The notes under the pieces: generated by a model
The model's input: the letters and a program-made list of their open reading frames with translations, nothing else
Databases searched by the model: none
What the model was told of the DNA's origin: nothing
IMG/VR virus record: IMGVR_UViG_3300033149_004838
Location: 1-22,845 of that record
DNA length: 22,845 nt
Source: a virus
Direction: 5' to 3' (one strand)
Shown: positions 3,343 through 12,901 of the stretch, piece after piece
Position numbering within the stretch: the first letter of the stretch is position 1
How the letters are laid out: the number at the start of each line of letters is the position of its first letter
Program-made: the position numbers and the translations under genes

Positions 3343-6300
3343 TTGATCAGAATCTTAGGTACCAAGGGAGAGATTGAAGAATCTTCTCCTTCTCATAAGA
3401 AGAATTCCGGTATTTTGATAGATGGAGTTCTCCTTGATGTGGGAGAAGCTGAATTTATTAAGTTAAAACCTAAGGCAATTTATATCACACACTTACACCC
3501 TGATCATGTGAAAGGTTTAGAAACCGCAACAAAAATTCCTGTATTTTCACTAGAAAAACCAAAACTTGAGGCTATCAATTGGCATCAAATATCCTCTGGT
3601 AAAGAATATCGGCTTGGAGGTATAAGGATTATACCAATTCCAACTACGCACTCAAAGAAAGTGAAATCTTGCGCTTTTCTGATTCTAAGGAAAGGAAAGA
3701 AAATACTTTATACTAGTGATATGATCTGGATAAAGAAAAAATATCATGGTTACTTGAAGAATTGTGATCTTGTTATAACGGAAGGTTCTTCTTTTTCTCG
3801 CGATTTAATAAGAAAAGATAAGAAAACGGGTGAAATTTACGGGCATTCAAGCATTCCTCGTCTAGTTAAACTCTTTAAAGGTCTAGGAGCTAAGAATATT
3901 GTTATTACTCATTTTGGTAAATGGCTTGTTACTGATCCTAAGAAAGGGTATGAAAAAATAGCAGCCTTAAGTGATGAAAAAACTAAAGTATGGGCTGCAA
4001 AGGATGGAGATGAGATAGATTTGGAAAAGTTACAAATTACTACAGAAACTTTACCAAAAAGAATACAACAGGTTATTGTAAAGAAGAAATTGTTTTGGTG
4101 TCCTATAGATCCTGAACACGGACCATTCGAAACAGAGATAGCTCTCAAAAAACATCTCAAGAAAAAACATCCCAAGGAGGCGGCTAGATGGTTAAGACTT
4201 CTTCAACTCACAGTTCAACCAACTAGAGGATTATATCTTGTACCACCTCATGGGACTTGGATAGTCAAAGGTATCAAAACTTTAATTGTTAAAAAGAAAA
4301 AGTTCAAAACTGATCCAAAGGAACCTCTAGTTCTATTAGAGGGGAATAAAGCTTTAGGAGTAATATGGTTAAAAGCTCCAAAGGCGATAAACTATCAAGA
4401 ATTCAAAGGATTGTTTGACAGACATAAAATTAAAGATGAAGAACGCAAAAAATGGTGGGGTGATGTTTTTCCATTATATGCTTATGAGTTTACTATTAAG
4501 AAGTATTCTAAACCAAAAATGGTCAAGATTCCCAAAGGGGTGCAGACTTTCGTAAATATAAAAAATGTAGAATTTATCTCTAAGGAAGAACTGATAGCAG
4601 ATTGGAGAAGTTATGATCCTAAGAAACTAATCAAAACAAAAGCAGGTCAGAGAGTTCTTGCAGATGATCATAGAATCTGTCATACTTGGTGGAATAGATT
4701 AAAACAAGGAAAAGCTATGAAATCTAAGCAGTTTAAAGATCTTTCTTTAGAAAAGCAGAAAGAGGTTGTCCGGAAATTACATGAACAAATTGTTGAAGCA
4801 ATGAAGATTCTTGGTTGGAAACATCGTACTCCATTATCAGTTGAATCTTTAATAGAAGATCCTAGTAAAGTAGAAATCAAGAATCTCGAACGAATAGATC
4901 CGAGATATCTTCAGGGCTTGAGTGATAAGCAGCTTAAAGCTCTCTATTACAGACTGCATTGGCTTTATCATAATAAGCTAAGAAGAATAACCGAACCTTT
5001 AGACAATGCTCATATCTTTGTCTGGAAAGAACTTAAGGATAGAAATATTCGTTTCAAACCAGTGGGAGATAAATTAGATAAGAGAGCAATTTCTGTTGTA
5101 GTTGAATATCCTAAACCTGAAGGTTTCGGGCCTGGAGGAATGTCAGCACATGAAACTATTCCAGAAATATATGTTGATAAGCTCTCGCGAGATCTTGCTC
5201 TTACTGAAGCTTTACAAGCTTTTCCTGACATAATTGTGTTACAAGAAGATCCAGTTCATGTTCATCTGTGTGGTTCAATAGTTAATAAAGGACGGAGTCC
5301 CAAGGGGCATGATGTTGATATTCTCTTTAAACAGAGTTTTCCAGACGCTAGAATTATTCATCAATTTGTAGATGATATTTCAGAGAGAAATCCTGATCTT
5401 GCTAGAAGATTGCATTTTGTCTGGGATCCATGGGGTCCTCAAATAGGTTTTTCTGTTCCTCTTTACAGACTAGCTTTTGTTAAAGTTTCTCCAAGAGAAT
5501 TGAGAATAGCTCATCCTTATGAATATCTTTCTAAAGCTATTGAAGTAATGAAACCTTTCAGAGCTCTTAAACCTAAATCTGGATTTCATAAACATGAATT
5601 CTTTGAAGTTCAAGATTTTTGGGATAAATGGGCTTCCAAGGTTATCGATAGAGGTCTAGTGGTCCAAAAGAAATATGATGGAATGAGATTTCAAATTCAT
5701 GTTAAAGGAAATCAAATAAAGATTATCACGGAAGATAAGAAAAGGGATAGATCAGGAGTATTTAAGCGATCAGTTAAAGAACTTCTTTCTAAGAAGAAAG
5801 CAAATAGTTTTATCCTAGATGCTGAAATGGTCGAATATGATTGTCAAGGTAAAGAAGTCAAAGATATGGAAATGATCTGCAAACCTAAGAAGCGAGAGAC
5901 AATGATTCCATGGGTAACTGCAGTCAAGAAAGCAATGGATGACAAGAATATCGTCTTTCATATTCATGACTGTCTATATTTCAATGGAGAAGACATTCAT
6001 GACAAAGGCTATGTAGAGAGATGGAACACTATTCCAAAATGTATTCCACCAGGTTTGAAGCATTGGAGAAGAGTTGAGGGAACTCTAGTTTCAAATGTTA
6101 GAGCTTTCTTTGCTGCGGTTAATAAATATAGAAGAATGCCTGGCTCAGAAGGTGTAGTTGTAAAGATCAAAGATTCTAAGTACAAATTGACTGGAAGAAC
6201 AGGAGAATGGGCTAAACTTAAGAATCTTAAGGAAATAGATGTAATGGTCTGGGAAGAAGAACAGAAGAAAACAGCTGCAGGAGAGAAAATTAACCAATGG

Positions 6301-6879
6301 ATGTATTATCCAGTTTTCCAGGTCCCTTGTAATATGAAGGATAAAATAAAAGAAAATCAATTTGTCGAGTATCAGGGAAAATGTTATGCGAAGATAGGAC
6401 GTACTTATTCAACAAAAGAGCGAGCTAAGCGTGGAGACATTATTACGGTTAGACCTATTCAAATCGTAGAGAATAAAGATCCAAGAACAGGCAAACTTTG
6501 GTGGACGTGGATGTTTCCTTTGTATGAAGGAAAGAGAACAGATAAGAAAGAACCTGATACTTTAACGACCGTCCGAAGAATAGTGAAAGCTGGAACAGGT
6601 CCCTTGTCGGATGATCTGTCTTCAAAGATTATTAGACTTCCTCGATGCCCATATTGGAATGATCCCTCAATTTGTCCACTTAGAGAGAGATTCTATGTTC
6701 CAGGAGATCATCTAGCTGAGCTTTCTAAAGAGAAAGTACTTGAGGAATATCTGAAGTTTCCAATAGTTTGCAAATTTGCTAATAGATTTAGATGTAAATT
6801 TGTTAAAGATTACTATTATGATTTACGCCCAATCAAAGAATATAAGGAAGAAGAAGTAGAATATATGGAGGAGGATTAG
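3343..6879 (+). CDS. Metallo-beta-lactamase / nucleotidyltransferase / ATP-dependent DNA ligase fusion
   Basis: 1178 residues, starting at a TTG right after the upstream stop. Domains in order: (1) about 1-240, a metallo-beta-lactamase fold with all seven metal ligands (H50-x-H52-x-D54-H55, H103, D126, H190) and no clear beta-CASP insert. (2) C253, H259, H271, H276, a possible zinc finger. (3) about 294-411, a PUA/ASCH-like segment (tentative). (4) a helical linker. (5) about 625-720, a pol-beta-type nucleotidyltransferase with G644-S645 and D657-x-D659. (6) about 765-1070, an ATP-dependent DNA ligase: motif I K777-Y-D-G, III E828, IIIa near D876, IV E936-G-V-V-V-K941, V W956-A-K-L-K960, and an OB-fold ending in motif VI R1065-T-D-K1068. 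(7) a C-terminal Cys cluster (C1102, C1111, C1143, C1151). KYDGMR favours DNA over RNA ligase. All three enzyme sites look intact. Substrate and pathway are inferred to be DNA end processing and sealing. Confidence 0.85.
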   Translation: MIRILGTKGEIEESSPSHKKNSGILIDGVLLDVGEAEFIKLKPKAIYITHLHPDHVKGLETATKIPVFSLEKPKLEAINWHQISSGKEYRLGGIRIIPIPTTHSKKVKSCAFLILRKGKKILYTSDMIWIKKKYHGYLKNCDLVITEGSSFSRDLIRKDKKTGEIYGHSSIPRLVKLFKGLGAKNIVITHFGKWLVTDPKKGYEKIAALSDEKTKVWAAKDGDEIDLEKLQITTETLPKRIQQVIVKKKLFWCPIDPEHGPFETEIALKKHLKKKHPKEAARWLRLLQLTVQPTRGLYLVPPHGTWIVKGIKTLIVKKKKFKTDPKEPLVLLEGNKALGVIWLKAPKAINYQEFKGLFDRHKIKDEERKKWWGDVFPLYAYEFTIKKYSKPKMVKIPKGVQTFVNIKNVEFISKEELIADWRSYDPKKLIKTKAGQRVLADDHRICHTWWNRLKQGKAMKSKQFKDLSLEKQKEVVRKLHEQIVEAMKILGWKHRTPLSVESLIEDPSKVEIKNLERIDPRYLQGLSDKQLKALYYRLHWLYHNKLRRITEPLDNAHIFVWKELKDRNIRFKPVGDKLDKRAISVVVEYPKPEGFGPGGMSAHETIPEIYVDKLSRDLALTEALQAFPDIIVLQEDPVHVHLCGSIVNKGRSPKGHDVDILFKQSFPDARIIHQFVDDISERNPDLARRLHFVWDPWGPQIGFSVPLYRLAFVKVSPRELRIAHPYEYLSKAIEVMKPFRALKPKSGFHKHEFFEVQDFWDKWASKVIDRGLVVQKKYDGMRFQIHVKGNQIKIITEDKKRDRSGVFKRSVKELLSKKKANSFILDAEMVEYDCQGKEVKDMEMICKPKKRETMIPWVTAVKKAMDDKNIVFHIHDCLYFNGEDIHDKGYVERWNTIPKCIPPGLKHWRRVEGTLVSNVRAFFAAVNKYRRMPGSEGVVVKIKDSKYKLTGRTGEWAKLKNLKEIDVMVWEEEQKKTAAGEKINQWMYYPVFQVPCNMKDKIKENQFVEYQGKCYAKIGRTYSTKERAKRGDIITVRPIQIVENKDPRTGKLWWTWMFPLYEGKRTDKKEPDTLTTVRRIVKAGTGPLSDDLSSKIIRLPRCPYWNDPSICPLRERFYVPGDHLAELSKEKVLEEYLKFPIVCKFANRFRCKFVKDYYYDLRPIKEYKEEEVEYMEED

Positions 6880-7111: not shown

Positions 7112-8953
7112 TTGAGAATTACAGAAGAAATGATAAATTGGCTAGAATTTCCTAAAGAGTACATCGAGTTAGCGTTAGCTCCATACATGGAAATGCCTAA
7201 GGGGGAACATCCCTTTGTTATGCAACATCACTGGAGAGGCAGAAGCGTGCATGTAGATTGGAGAATGAAAGCAAATGGTTACTTGGTAGGTTGGACAATT
7301 TTAGACAATCCGAAAGGTACCCCAAAAGTCGATTCCTTAGAAGACGCAGCTAAAGCATTAAAAATAGTACCTTTCCGATTCAAAGCCGAAAATAAAAATA
7401 TAGGTAGACGAGCTGAAACTAAAGCAAGACAACCACTCGAATGGCTCAAAGTGCATGGAGTTACGAAACCGGGTGAAGTGGGAGCTACTAAAGAGAATAT
7501 CGGCGTTATTTATATCTTTGAAAAAGGAAAAGTTATCTTTGGAGTACAAAAACCATATTTTCATGAGTATTTCATTAAATCTGAGACAGGAAACTTCTTC
7601 CCGAAAGGAGAATGGGTAAGAATTGTGGTCAGAAGAGTAAGAGTTCCAGTTCTTGATCCTGAAACTAAGAAACCTCTCAAGAAACGAGAAGTAATGTGGA
7701 GAGTCTTAATTCCAAGCACTCAAGAACCTTACGCTATCTCTAAACGTGCTATGCAAAGAAACTATAAACCTCCTAAGTCAAATCCTTATCCTTTTCCATT
7801 AGAATGGACTAAGAAGAACTTTCCTGAACAATTTAAGAAATGGAAAGAATGGATAGAAGGAAAGAAAGCCGAGAAAACCTGTAGAAATTGCATCGAGTTT
7901 GAAAGTTGCACAGATCCAGAAACTTTGGCGAACCCAGATAGAATTGCTTGTAATAATTGGAGACCAAAAGAACCTTGTGAATGTTCTTCGGCTAGGTTTA
8001 CTTTACATTTCAATTCTTGGATGGGACAGTTTGTGGTTAGGGGACAACCTAGGAGAGAATGGTATCTTCGGTTGGATGATAGAGGCAAAGGAGATATAAG
8101 ATCATTTTTCTTTCCAAGAGATCCTTTGTATTTTGAGCCAGTAAGTGCTGAGGATGAGGGAAGAGTTGATAGAAAATGGTTCAATTTTGAGGGGAAAATA
8201 CCTCCAAGAACAAAATATAATCCTAACAAAAAAATTCCTGCCATTATGAAAATCATTGATTCTGGAAAAGTTGAAATAGATTCTAGAACTGAGAATGGAA
8301 TTGAAATTATTGATCTTAAATTCAAAGGAAAGAAGTTAAAAGGTAAATGGAGATTAATCCAAGAGGAGAAAGGAGCTTCAACCTTTTCTTTTGAGAAGTT
8401 GAATGAGCAATTAGGAAAGATTACTTTTGTTCTTCAGAGACATTGGATTCCTAGAAAAGGAATCGTAAAATCTCCCAAGTTTCCAGAAGACTTTGTTCAT
8501 CACTGGGATATTCGACTTAGTTCTGGTATAGAGTGGAACCTCTACAAGAATCCTACTAAAGTTGCTGTTGAAGAACCAATTAGAGCAAGAAAGAAACAAT
8601 ATTCTCCTGAAAAGATCAAACCATGGATGGAAATTTCTAAACCACATAAGTTTATGCTAGTTGGTCCTCTTCCAACTTATGTCGATCCACTTGATAAAGG
8701 AAAAGTAGAAATCTTCAATATGAGTCCTACTTTCATTTCCATGAAATTACACGGTTCCAAATTAAAAGGCTATTTCATCTGGAAGAAAACAGAAACTGAT
8801 CAAGTATTTATGAAGTCCAAACTTCCTAAAACAGAAGAGAAATCAGATAATGATGAGATTGAAGAAACTTTCAAAGAAGTTTTGAAAGCGTTAAAAAAAG
8901 AAGAAGAAACTAAAAAAGAGAGAAAGGAAAAAGACGAAGAAGAAGAGGGATAG
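7112..8953 (+). CDS. Triple LigD-type 3'-phosphoesterase-fold protein
   Basis: TTG start with GGAGGA upstream. I read three copies of the 3'-phosphoesterase (PE) fold known from LigD, which trims 3' phosphates and ribonucleotides. Copy 1 (about 33-230) has the Q-x-H...H-x-D-x-R core (H40, H47, D49, R51) and a PLEW...G...KPGEVGA stretch like the LigD P-L-D-Y...G-E-Y-G-A region, but the usual DHP histidine reads as Q. A Cys cluster (C257, C260, C266, C280) follows. Copy 2 (about 294-425) keeps the second half (FEGKIPP, IIDSGKVEI, KKLKGKWRLI) but has lost the metal-binding H/D residues. Copy 3 (about 435-580) regains H444, H464, D466, R468 and ends KLHGSKLKGYFIW. The C-terminus is acidic and basic. 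LigD PE is normally a single domain of about 160 residues. Copies 1 and 3 may be active; copy 2 is probably structural. Confidence 0.75.
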   Translation: MRITEEMINWLEFPKEYIELALAPYMEMPKGEHPFVMQHHWRGRSVHVDWRMKANGYLVGWTILDNPKGTPKVDSLEDAAKALKIVPFRFKAENKNIGRRAETKARQPLEWLKVHGVTKPGEVGATKENIGVIYIFEKGKVIFGVQKPYFHEYFIKSETGNFFPKGEWVRIVVRRVRVPVLDPETKKPLKKREVMWRVLIPSTQEPYAISKRAMQRNYKPPKSNPYPFPLEWTKKNFPEQFKKWKEWIEGKKAEKTCRNCIEFESCTDPETLANPDRIACNNWRPKEPCECSSARFTLHFNSWMGQFVVRGQPRREWYLRLDDRGKGDIRSFFFPRDPLYFEPVSAEDEGRVDRKWFNFEGKIPPRTKYNPNKKIPAIMKIIDSGKVEIDSRTENGIEIIDLKFKGKKLKGKWRLIQEEKGASTFSFEKLNEQLGKITFVLQRHWIPRKGIVKSPKFPEDFVHHWDIRLSSGIEWNLYKNPTKVAVEEPIRARKKQYSPEKIKPWMEISKPHKFMLVGPLPTYVDPLDKGKVEIFNMSPTFISMKLHGSKLKGYFIWKKTETDQVFMKSKLPKTEEKSDNDEIEETFKEVLKALKKEEETKKERKEKDEEEEG

Positions 8954-8993: not shown

Positions 8994-10871
8994 ATGGAAG
9001 AAGAAGATTTAGGAATAGAAACTGAAGAACTTGCAAGATCAAAAGAACTAGAGATGCTTACTATTCCATATCACTTAGTTGGAGAAGTAGGCAAAGCTCT
9101 TCTGATTACAGGAGTTGCATTAACTGAAGGTATCTGGAAGAATGTTATTTATTCTGCTAAAGAATTAAAGAAAGTAGCTAAATCTTTGAAAGGTAAGCCA
9201 TTGCTCATTGAACATGGAACAACTAAGGAATTTGGAGACAGAAAAGTGGGTGTAGTTGTTGAATCTTACTATGAACCTACTTTGAAAGGAATTGTCTTCA
9301 AAGGTCATGTTGAAAATCCACTTGCTAAAAAACTTGTTAAATCAGGAGTACTTTCTGCAGTTTCCTGTTCCACTTGGTTAGATAAGAAACCAGTTAATCA
9401 ATCTCTAAAAATAGGAAAAAACTATATTTTTACAGAATTAAGTTTAGTTAGAGTTCCTGCATGTGATAAATGTTTTATCTTTCATAAAGAACAGTTATCA
9501 AAACTTACAGGAGAGAAAGACTTAAAAATAACAGAGAGCTTAAAATTTGATAGAGGAGAAAAAAATATGACAGAAATAGAAACCTTATCCGAAATAGAGG
9601 AAGAGGAAGAACTGATGGATCTAGAAGAACTTGAAGAACCTACTTTGTATGCTATCCTTGAATTGCCTGATGAAGAATCTTTAGAAAACCTCAGAAGGTC
9701 AAAGAAGATAGTTTCTTATTACTATGGTTATCCTTCTTATGCTCCTTATGGCTATAAATATCCTTCTCCTTATAAGTATCCTTATAAGTATCCTTATCGA
9801 TACAAAGAGAAAGGAAGTCTAGAAGAAACGCCTATAATAGCTGCAATCCTACAACTTGATTCCAAGGAAGAATTGGAAGAACTTAGACAAATTTATAAAG
9901 TCAGAAGAGCTTACTATGGCTACAGAGGCTATCCATATCCGAATGGTTACTCATATAGATATCCTTACAAGTATAAGTACAAGTACAAGTATCCAACTTA
10001 TGGGAAACTTAGTGAAAAACTTTCAGTCCAGGACAGAACAGTAGGTAAACCACTAGAAGATTACGAAGAATACAAACCCAAAGAAATCCGATCTGTTGAA
10101 CCTGCTCCTAATCCTGAAAATACTTCTGCTCTTACTTGTCCAGTCTGTGACAAAGATTTCAAAGATAATGAAGCTTTCATGCAGCATTGGAAAGAAGAGC
10201 ATGAGAAAGAGTATGGTCCTTTCAAGGAAACAAAAACAATTCTAGAAGCACTTGGTTGTATAGTCGATCTTAGTAAAGGGGATACTAAAATCATAAAGTC
10301 TAAAGCTGGTCGGTTTATTGTCTTTGTAGACACAGGAGAGACGGGCTTTGGTCAATGGAAGATTGTGGGAAACTTTGCAACTCGTAAAGAGGCAGAAGAG
10401 GCAGCTAAGAAAGCCAAACTTGCTAAGGAAGAAAAAGAAGAAACAGCTAAGGACAAATGGGGTTGTATCGTTGGAAAAGAGAAATGGGATCCTGAACAGA
10501 AGAAATGTATACCTGTCTCTGAAGAAGAGATGAGTAAATATACTGATTTCATGGCTCAATGTCGTAAAGAAGGTAAGTCAATGAAAGATTGTGCTGAGGA
10601 ATGGCGGAAAAGAGAAGAAACACTTGCAGTCATTTGTCCGGCTTGTAAAGAAGAGTTTGAAAATGAAAAAGCTTTAGCTAAACACTGGGCTGAGAAACAT
10701 CAAGAAGCTTATGGACCTTTAAAGAAAGCATACAAGTATCCTGAGAAGAAATCGTTGGCTTATTACTATTATAAATATCGTGGTAGATATTATCCATACT
10801 ATTATAAGGACGGGAAATACTACACCAAGTATCCTTATAAGAAAAAGAAAAGAAAGGCTAAGAAGAAATAA
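8994..10871 (+). CDS. Prohead protease (XkdF/S78-like) fused to Tyr-rich repeats and two C2H2 zinc fingers
   Basis: Residues 20-165 look like a phage serine prohead protease: GVALTEGIWKNVIY, then GKPLLIEHG (candidate catalytic H74) and VLSAVSCSTW (candidate serine S124 or S126). It cleaves scaffold and capsid proteins during head maturation. Beyond about 190 come an acidic stretch, two copies of an I-L-x-L-x-x-x-E-x-L-E-x-L-R module each followed by Y/K/P-rich runs, a C2H2 finger (C382, C385, H398, H403), a middle domain with a C-x8-C-A-x-x-W motif, a second C2H2 finger with identical spacing (C548, C551, H564, H569), and a Tyr/Lys-rich basic tail. Such extensions are unusual for a protease of this type and may form an in-cis scaffold or DNA-binding part. 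GTGAT lies 5 bases before the ATG, and an AT box (TTAAATAAA, 8956-8964) upstream could be a promoter. It is followed by scaffold-like genes and the capsid gene. Confidence 0.75.
   Translation: MEEEDLGIETEELARSKELEMLTIPYHLVGEVGKALLITGVALTEGIWKNVIYSAKELKKVAKSLKGKPLLIEHGTTKEFGDRKVGVVVESYYEPTLKGIVFKGHVENPLAKKLVKSGVLSAVSCSTWLDKKPVNQSLKIGKNYIFTELSLVRVPACDKCFIFHKEQLSKLTGEKDLKITESLKFDRGEKNMTEIETLSEIEEEEELMDLEELEEPTLYAILELPDEESLENLRRSKKIVSYYYGYPSYAPYGYKYPSPYKYPYKYPYRYKEKGSLEETPIIAAILQLDSKEELEELRQIYKVRRAYYGYRGYPYPNGYSYRYPYKYKYKYKYPTYGKLSEKLSVQDRTVGKPLEDYEEYKPKEIRSVEPAPNPENTSALTCPVCDKDFKDNEAFMQHWKEEHEKEYGPFKETKTILEALGCIVDLSKGDTKIIKSKAGRFIVFVDTGETGFGQWKIVGNFATRKEAEEAAKKAKLAKEEKEETAKDKWGCIVGKEKWDPEQKKCIPVSEEEMSKYTDFMAQCRKEGKSMKDCAEEWRKREETLAVICPACKEEFENEKALAKHWAEKHQEAYGPLKKAYKYPEKKSLAYYYYKYRGRYYPYYYKDGKYYTKYPYKKKKRKAKKK
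9567..10871 (+). CDS. Possible nested in-frame scaffold product of the protease gene
   Basis: The ATG at 9567 is in frame with the protease gene (its residue 192) and is preceded by GAGGAG at 9553-9558, 8 bases away, a better ribosome binding site than that of the full-length start. The product would be 434 residues, start with an acidic stretch (MTEIETLSEIEEEEE), and hold the Tyr-rich repeats and both zinc fingers without the protease. Lambda makes its scaffold Nu3 in this way from inside the protease gene C. The start and site are seen; use of the start is inferred. Confidence 0.4.
   Translation: MTEIETLSEIEEEEELMDLEELEEPTLYAILELPDEESLENLRRSKKIVSYYYGYPSYAPYGYKYPSPYKYPYKYPYRYKEKGSLEETPIIAAILQLDSKEELEELRQIYKVRRAYYGYRGYPYPNGYSYRYPYKYKYKYKYPTYGKLSEKLSVQDRTVGKPLEDYEEYKPKEIRSVEPAPNPENTSALTCPVCDKDFKDNEAFMQHWKEEHEKEYGPFKETKTILEALGCIVDLSKGDTKIIKSKAGRFIVFVDTGETGFGQWKIVGNFATRKEAEEAAKKAKLAKEEKEETAKDKWGCIVGKEKWDPEQKKCIPVSEEEMSKYTDFMAQCRKEGKSMKDCAEEWRKREETLAVICPACKEEFENEKALAKHWAEKHQEAYGPLKKAYKYPEKKSLAYYYYKYRGRYYPYYYKDGKYYTKYPYKKKKRKAKKK
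9648..10013 (+). repeat. Duplicated 64-residue Tyr-rich module in the protease
   Basis: Two copies spaced 64 residues apart: residues from 219 (YAILELPDEESLENLRR) and from 283 (AAILQLDSKEELEELRQ). Each leads into YYGY and then Y/K/P runs such as YKYPYKYPYRYK. A third Tyr/Lys-rich run ends the protein. Confidence 0.6.
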
Positions 10872-11860: not shown

Positions 11861-12901
11861 ATGAAGTCTCTAGAAGAGCTTGCTAATTGGTCTACAGATG
11901 ATTTGCCTAGTCTGTTAACTCAGGTTATATTAGCTGAAGTCGAGGAAGCAGCTCGAGCTAGACGTTTTGGAAGAAACTTAGTCAGAATTAATGAAGACTT
12001 GGTTAGGACCAAAGGTCGTAGCTTGATCTTTTACAGAAGAGGTACTTTGAGTGCTAGCGCTGTGACTGAAGGTTCTTCACCTTCTCACAGTACGATCACT
12101 TACACACCTCATACTTTGACTGTAAGCAAATATGCTGTTGCTGCTAAGATTACGCAAGAAGCTATCGATGGATCTAACCTTGATCTTATCAGGGATACGA
12201 TCCGTGAAGCAGGTATAGCTCTTGCAGATAAAGAAGATGCTGTCATCATATCTGCACTTATGGGTGAAGAAAGCACCCTTACAGTGGAAGCTGTCTCTGC
12301 AGTTGATGGTGGAACCACAACTTTGGCTCACTCACCATTGACTTATATTAAGATAACTACAGGCGAAAATACCCTCTCGGTTGACTATTACAATGGTGTG
12401 ATAGTAGCCTCAAACACTGCTTCTGCTTTTACAGTCTCATACTACTTCTCTGACAGAACTAACTATGTTGATGCAAGTACTGAAGGTACTTTCTCATATG
12501 TTGACATAGTTAATGCTGCTAATGTAGTGCGGGCTAAGAAATGGACACCTGACTTTATGCTAATTCATCCCAATCAGATGAAAGACCTGCTTAAGAGTTC
12601 ACAATTTGTGGACTATTCTAAGTATGGTGCTCGTGAGCCTCTGCTCCGAGGAGAGATTGGGCAGATATCAGGCATAAGAGTACTTGTTTCAACCAACATG
12701 CGTTCTGGAAATGCAATTATCCTTGCTTCTAAGAGAGCAGCTTGGTTAGCCATCAAGAGACATATAGATCTCAAGAGATGGGATAATCCAAGCACTGATA
12801 GTATAGAGCTTTACTTCTATATGGAATATGGTTGCAAGGTAACTGATGAAGATGCCATAGTGTTGCTGGTTGGTCTTGGAGATACTACTGTTACAAGTTA
12901 G
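11861..12901 (+). CDS. Major capsid protein, HK97 fold
   Basis: 346 residues. The order of elements fits the HK97-like capsid family: an N-terminal helical arm (1-45), a strand-rich E-loop-like region around 55-95 (RGTLSASAVTEGSSPSHSTI), a conserved segment KYAVAAKITQEAIDGS, the spine helix (LIRDTIREAGIALADKEDAV), an inserted beta domain (about 140-200), and the A-domain end with FMLIHPNQMKDLL and a final strand-rich part. GTGAT lies 6 bases before the ATG. Position after protease and scaffold-like genes, and a terminator-like hairpin right after it, support the call. There is no obvious cleaved acidic delta domain at the N-terminus, which fits scaffold supplied by separate genes. Confidence 0.85.
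   Translation: MKSLEELANWSTDDLPSLLTQVILAEVEEAARARRFGRNLVRINEDLVRTKGRSLIFYRRGTLSASAVTEGSSPSHSTITYTPHTLTVSKYAVAAKITQEAIDGSNLDLIRDTIREAGIALADKEDAVIISALMGEESTLTVEAVSAVDGGTTTLAHSPLTYIKITTGENTLSVDYYNGVIVASNTASAFTVSYYFSDRTNYVDASTEGTFSYVDIVNAANVVRAKKWTPDFMLIHPNQMKDLLKSSQFVDYSKYGAREPLLRGEIGQISGIRVLVSTNMRSGNAIILASKRAAWLAIKRHIDLKRWDNPSTDSIELYFYMEYGCKVTDEDAIVLLVGLGDTTVTS

Follow-up and report, generated by a model that had tools for sequence, protein, structure and literature searches.

A viral fusion of metallo-beta-lactamase, nucleotidyltransferase and DNA ligase next to a 3'-phosphoesterase gene: a candidate packaged DNA repair polyprotein in a head-gene cassette

What role could a metallo-beta-lactamase (MBL), a nucleotidyltransferase (NTase) and an ATP-dependent DNA ligase have when they are joined in one protein among the head genes of a virus? 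This question is raised by the IMG/VR virus record IMGVR_UViG_3300033149_004838, a linear sequence of 22,845 bases which was analysed over its whole length (the window). An initial annotation of positions 3343-6879 had described the three enzymes in one intact viral protein, and the open reading frame (ORF) of 1178 amino acids confirms this. What it missed is a 3'-phosphoesterase (PE) gene next door and the site of both genes, hereafter the module, inside the capsid cassette, which is the main mechanistic clue. On balance, and with considerable reserve, we read the fusion and the PE gene as a polyprotein for DNA repair and ligation which would be packaged in the capsid and would act on the genome of the virus itself, within the particle or on entry. 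The parts of the module are as follows.

3343-6879, plus strand: fusion ORF with TTG start, 1178 amino acids; order MBL, ASCH, helical domain, NTase, ATP-dependent ligase, four-cysteine tail.
3343-4038, plus strand: MBL domain, residues 1-232, PhnP/RNase Z/YycJ-like, no beta-CASP match (Lactamase_B_2, NCBIfam, PDB profile search).
4099-4173, plus strand: zinc-finger-like linker, residues 253-277 (C253, H271, H276), not a full C2H2 finger (by sequence only).
4207-4587, plus strand: ASCH/PUA-like domain, residues 289-415, with the motif DEERKKWW (AlphaFold2, Foldseek, VIA).
4594-5142, plus strand: helical domain, residues 418-600, which usually precedes the NTase (profile and model comparison).
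5197-5592, plus strand: minimal Pol-beta-superfamily NTase, residues 619-750, with G644-S645, D657-x-D659 and R709 (alignments, model, profiles).
5638-6597, plus strand: ATP-dependent DNA ligase, adenylation and OB domains, residues 766-1085, nucleophile K777 (DNA_ligase_A_M, conservation).
6646-6831, plus strand: conserved four-cysteine tail after the ligase, residues 1102-1163 (alignment of 19 rows).
7112-8953, plus strand: PE gene, 613 amino acids, GGAGG ahead of a TTG start, three tandem LigD 3'-phosphoesterase-like repeats (LigD_N, profiles).
7130-7705, plus strand: PE repeat 1, metal ligands H40, H47, D49 and R51 (invariant or 99% in the family).
7967-8410, plus strand: PE-like repeat 2, metal ligands lost (repeat 1 profile, 2e-16 over residues 316-433; sequence).
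8411-8851, plus strand: PE-like repeat 3 with H444, H464, D466 and R468 (profiles, sequence).

The initial annotation spoke of a five-part fusion. The fusion stands, but the count was too low, as the helical domain and the four-cysteine tail are also present and PE domains follow in the next gene. An assembly artefact or chance matches to motifs could mimic such a protein, and the window is a single metagenomic contig. However, the domain order is identical in two contigs from other metagenomes (L009 and L010), where a PE gene follows too, and Pfam E-values reach 5e-27. The chance of an artefact is therefore negligible; we rejected it, and the assembly error that the initial annotation had allowed for is excluded.

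IMG/VR was scanned with three alignments, which gave 31 loci for the ligase, 12 for MBL-ASCH and 33 for the PE. The domain counts are based on 61 distinct viral loci; the queries recover one another's domains (the ligase is also present in 26 of the 33 PE-query loci), and the shares depend in part on the choice of queries. PE was found in 58 of the 61 loci, NTase and ligase in 57 each, ASCH in 33, MBL in 26 and a D12 methyltransferase in 11. The order of the domains is permuted across the loci, and they are either fused or split over one to several ORFs. Further domains are uracil-DNA glycosylase (UDG; L030, L061), Nudix, 2H/LigT (L055) and C5 and other methyltransferases. The profile search for other such fusions that had been proposed for this protein thus yields a family of shuffled architectures. 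The annotation's statement that no protein with this domain set has been described agrees with our search of openly licensed papers, in which none was found. Among 50,697 phage records searched by tblastn, a relative turned up in the ANMV-1 virus alone, for the NTase-ligase part as well as for the PE gene.

The place of the module is highly regular. A portal gene was recognised in 36 loci; in 35 of them it is located upstream of the module on the same strand, and it often abuts the module. The prohead protease, recognised in 47 loci, is located downstream in 34 and fused into the same ORF in 13, and the capsid protein is downstream in all of the 24 loci in which it was recognised. The chain NTase-ligase-PE-PE-XkdF protease is a single polypeptide in L033, L036 and L053, and L024 carries an ASCH-portal fusion. 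In the window, the two head genes behind the module are these.

8994-10871, plus strand: prohead-protease-like ORF, protease at residues 31-165, Tyr-rich stretches, two C2H2 fingers (profile common with the relatives' XkdF/S78_2 proteases).
11861-12901, plus strand: HK97-fold major capsid protein (Phage_capsid_4, 4.8e-16; phrog_267, 4e-20).

The protease-like ORF of the window itself has no direct protease match in Pfam. Neither a portal nor a terminase turned up in the window record; at the site which the portal occupies in most relatives, the module has a DUF2341 gene (1417-2619) and two small genes ahead of it. Two ordinary phages, Lactococcus phage 28201 and Rhizobium phage RHph_Y1_11, were examined and have no such module at the equivalent place. 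Pairwise distances of the ligase correlate with those of the portal (r 0.86), the large terminase subunit (0.83), the major capsid protein (0.78) and the protease (0.78). Each of these values beats all 500 permutations, and the capsid protein against the protease gives 0.81 for comparison. The module thus co-diverges with the head genes and behaves as a head gene.

Because of the protease fusion and the cassette position, the enzymes are expected to enter the procapsid. The module would be made late, together with portal, protease and capsid proteins, and the polyprotein would enter the procapsid, in some viruses fused to the prohead protease, and may be cut into pieces inside. The same position could also suit an enzyme of morphogenesis or packaging which mends nicks and gaps of the concatemer at the portal, or a late-expressed replication ligase, in both cases outside the virion. 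The gene adjoins the portal, and in nearly every record searched no ATP ligase was found besides that of the module, which fits such a role. However, the protease fusion in 13 distinct loci places the protein in the procapsid interior unless it is cleaved earlier, and for a replication ligase a fusion with head genes is unexpected. We therefore give this explanation little credit.

In the ligase, DNA_ligase_A_M matches residues 766-960 with E=5e-27, and the KxDG nucleophile and motifs III, IV and V of the ATP-dependent DNA ligase superfamily are present. K777 is conserved in 100% of the relatives (59/59 scored), as is G780 (100%), followed by E936 (98%, 59/60), K958 (98%, 59/60), E828 (97%, 58/60) and K941 (93%). 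Motif VI is recognisable but weak: P1059 is kept in 56 of 62 sequences and the basic residues behind it are variable. Of the full motif set described before, KxDG, III, IV and V are therefore secure and motif VI is less clear.

LigD_N matches the PE ORF with 2.2e-7, barely over the curated cut-off. The equivalents of the LigD manganese ligands His42, His48 and Asp50 are kept in every row with a letter at the position (H40 38/38, H47 46/46, D49 46/46). With E of about 1e-6, the two best of five PE-profile matches in the PDB were 3p43 and 3p4h ("ATP-dependent DNA ligase, N-terminal domain protein"); the ligase entries 2lj6 and 3n9b came next.

No Pfam family matches the NTase domain of the window by itself, but NTP_transf_2 matches 9 of 46 relatives (best 8.8e-5). 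The family profile places Mnt, TdT and Pol beta on top of the PDB matches, only at E=0.2-0.6. The AlphaFold2 model aligns best (VIA-align) with the minimal NTase HI0073 (1no5; Z 8.2, 88 residues, 3.0 A), then with MNT antitoxins (Z 5.1-6.9) and Pol beta (Z 4.9). G644 (47/47), D657 (46/47) and D659 (47/47) are conserved; the signature G[GS]...DxD, set on an NT fold, is that of a minimal NTase of the Pol-beta superfamily. The call is based on VIA-align, the relatives' Pfam matches and the profile search, not on Foldseek. At the third acid, D is found in 28 of 47 relatives and R in 10; the window has R709, so that of the three catalytic acids of Pol X only D657 and D659 are present. About 20 residues separate the end of the NTase (747) from the start of the ligase (766), which leaves no space for a Pol X thumb, and none follows the palm. 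The pol-beta-type assignment thus holds for the glycine, the two aspartates and the fold, with the restriction that the enzyme belongs to the minimal type. Among prokaryotic Pol X enzymes, those whose acids are altered have no polymerase activity (PMC9226535).

Judged by the conservation of catalytic residues, the enzymes appear to be mostly intact. Inteins favour active sites and conserved motifs, and here they were found in conserved motifs of NTase, ligase and PE (L012, L013, L014, L038): just before Lys958 of ligase motif V, at ligase residue 1055, at about residue 702 of the NTase beside the third strand, and in the PE motif QKPxFHEYF. A vestigial or structural role was rejected as a general explanation, given the conserved catalytic residues and the inteins at active-site motifs.

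UDG, the LigD-type PE and the DNA methyltransferases indicate that the substrate would be DNA rather than RNA. An RNA repair kit, in which an RNase Z-like MBL, a CCA-type NTase, the ligase and a 2H phosphoesterase mend tRNA or mRNA cut by host defences, would explain why the MBL resembles RNase Z and why one member (L055) has a 2H/LigT domain, and ASCH domains can act on RNA. We consider it very improbable, as the ligase is of the DNA_ligase_A_M type, with weak RNA_ligase matches in two family members only, the PE is LigD-type, and UDG and the DNA methyltransferases act on DNA.

The MBL domain matches Lactamase_B_2 over residues 43-191 (E=1.4e-14), and NCBIfam RNase_Z and PhnP below cut-off; by these profiles it resembles PhnP, RNase Z and YycJ-like hydrolases. 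H50, H52, D54 and H168 are invariant in 25 relatives, and H103 and D126 are each present in 24. Position 190 is H in 17 and Q in 8, and position 55 is H in 17, C in 5 and A in 3. The complete active site claimed for this domain is hence borne out by the Pfam match and the invariant H50, H52 and D54, but H55 is not universal. A stand-alone MBL of 225 amino acids, 49-54% identical, was seen in a Peregrinibacteria contig from a metagenome-assembled genome (L006, 2085-2762); the MBL half may have come from such a cellular gene.

Another match of the MBL profile is the anti-Pycsar enzyme Apyc1 (2.4e-9, PDB profile search). This brings in a polyvalent protein which is packaged in the same way and injected for counter-defence and host takeover: the MBL would be a cyclic-nucleotide phosphodiesterase which degrades signals, the minimal NTase an AMP-transferase which modifies host proteins, the methyltransferases would act against restriction, and ligase and PE would reverse nuclease damage on incoming DNA. 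The packaging evidence serves both purposes equally, the best fold matches of the NTase are HI0073 and MNT antitoxins, and methyltransferases occur in several modules. However, the most constant parts, NTase, ligase and PE, are a set for healing and sealing DNA ends, the MBL is optional, and UDG and the LigD-type PE have no evident anti-defence role. We regard counter-defence as the purpose as unlikely. Repair of the virus's own DNA is favoured because of this constant core and of partners that point to DNA.

The part at residues 290-410, left unnamed before, was resolved by structure comparison as an ASCH/PUA-like fold. AlphaFold2 gave a pLDDT of 92, Foldseek a match to 2dp9 at 6e-7, and VIA Z-scores of 12.9 to 2dp9 and about 11 to ZmASCH. 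The domain likely binds nucleic acid. Foldseek with the model of helical domain and NTase gave no confident match (all E>0.2), and the helical domain could be tied to no particular relative. The four-cysteine tail is a possible zinc or Fe-S site.

The chemistries had been compared with those of Artemis, Pol X and ligase IV in eukaryotic end joining. The likeness is at the level of superfamily chemistry only, a parallel and not homology of the set. The module has no Beta-Casp Pfam match at E<1 (64 residues lie between D126 and H190), no Pol X thumb, R709 in place of the third acid and no BRCT Pfam match, and Ku was found in none of 50 related records (a search outside of which the window's own record lay, and in which records may be fragments). 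The parallel with eukaryotic-style non-homologous end joining was therefore rejected. The PE, UDG and methyltransferase partners lend weight to the role in DNA repair or end processing that had been proposed at the same time.

If the module is a packaged repair polyprotein, it would work on the virus's own DNA within the particle or during entry into the cell. The PE repeats would free 3' ends that are blocked by a 3'-phosphate or 3'-ribonucleotide; the MBL may trim nucleic-acid ends, and the NTase may either attach nucleotides or modify a partner. The nucleic acid would be held by ASCH and the helical domain, and nicks would be sealed by the ligase. The optional methyltransferase could serve anti-restriction and the optional UDG uracil removal. 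A bolder form of this idea, which we put forward only tentatively and hold to be doubtful, is a Ku-independent, self-contained break-healing machine in the head, comprising 3'-end cleaning, nucleotide addition, sealing and in some members uracil excision, which is injected with the genome, so that repair or circularisation starts before viral gene expression.

Several points weigh against packaged repair. Packaging is implied, short of proof, by gene position and the protease fusion. In 22 of 26 records, contigs of more than 100 kb included, no ATP ligase other than that of the module was found, so that the module ligase could simply be the general viral ligase. Some relatives (L069, L070, L075) lack the ligase, and the third acid of the NTase is absent in the window. 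The sister of the window protein (L007, 9257-11719), 66% identical over 784 amino acids, has neither MBL nor ASCH, so that the MBL-ASCH half is optional. The PE lacks the equivalents of LigD His84 and Tyr88 (position 107 is Q in 20 and E in 20 of 47 sequences, position 111 is W in all 47), which are both needed in P. aeruginosa LigD (PMC8656161).

Among known systems, phage polyvalent proteins are encoded near virion genes, and are predicted to be packaged and to enter the host with the DNA (PMC5512222). They are very large, join unrelated enzymatic domains and in some cases are fused to portal or MuF domains (PMC5512222). The module likewise unites a number of dissimilar enzymatic domains in a single chain whose gene lies close to virion genes. 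However, the available text of that study contains no DNA ligase, LigD PE, MBL, ASCH or glycosylase; as far as that text goes, Pol-beta NTases occur only in conjugative elements, proteins of more than 1000 amino acids are almost all bacterial, and processing is assigned to zincin peptidases and not to a prohead protease (PMC5512222). By this comparison, the module can be viewed as a new DNA-repair variant of the polyvalent proteins.

A single named relative was found, the 866-amino-acid "ATP-dependent DNA ligase" of the ANMV-1 virus (AJP62006, KP703175). It has a homologous NTase-ligase-PE-PE core directly behind the portal; unlike in the window, no MBL, ASCH or helical domain was found. The ANMV-1 paper makes no mention of ligase, portal or NTase. 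The gene behind this ligase (L004, 5868-9368) codes for a Cys-rich protein of 1166 amino acids with a MuF-like segment at its end, as judged by eye.

Bacterial LigD also combines ligase and PE in one repair protein with conserved PE metal ligands. In contrast to LigD, the module has a minimal NTase, no Ku and the altered PE positions described above, and its gene lies in a capsid cassette; a LigD-type primase-polymerase domain gave no Pfam match at E<1 in the window ORFs scanned. African swine fever virus packages base-excision-repair enzymes in its virion (PMC12172490). It is a DNA virus which likewise has a Pol-beta-superfamily enzyme, a ligase and other repair enzymes (PMC12172490). There, however, they are separate proteins with a true-polymerase Pol X in an unrelated virus, and packaging has been shown, whereas for the module it would follow from gene arrangement.

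Further observations concern the neighbouring genes. The Tyr-rich stretches of the protease-like ORF hold up to 21 Tyr per 40 residues, with Tyr/Lys/Pro repeats in the window, and are common to eight relatives (L007, L008, L009, L010, L013, L014, L015, L016). They are perhaps a scaffold or a DNA contact. The C2H2 fingers were considered as a common packaging tag and dropped, since just 3 of 39 protease ORFs have them, and among the ORFs of the module 1 of 101. In L002 (15874-18459), prohead protease and capsid protein seem by eye to be fused in an ORF of 861 amino acids. In the vicinity of the module, the closest relatives of the window carry a gene for a Lon-type protease (L001, 4078-6285; L007, 1-2220; L010, 1-1494). 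In a search for signs of the host, TATA-binding protein was found in 2 of 42 related records and in ANMV-1; matches to MCM were weak and not host-specific. The family is carried by tailed viruses, some of which infect archaea.

If the packaged repair polyprotein is real, tailed viruses, among them archaeal viruses of sediments, would carry DNA repair as a function of the virion, a parallel to African swine fever virus that arose by separate descent. The module would be a second natural combination of ligase and 3'-phosphoesterase besides LigD, and the shuffled ligase fusions of environmental viruses would form a library of potential enzyme tools. It would also make a testable prediction on the contents of these capsids.

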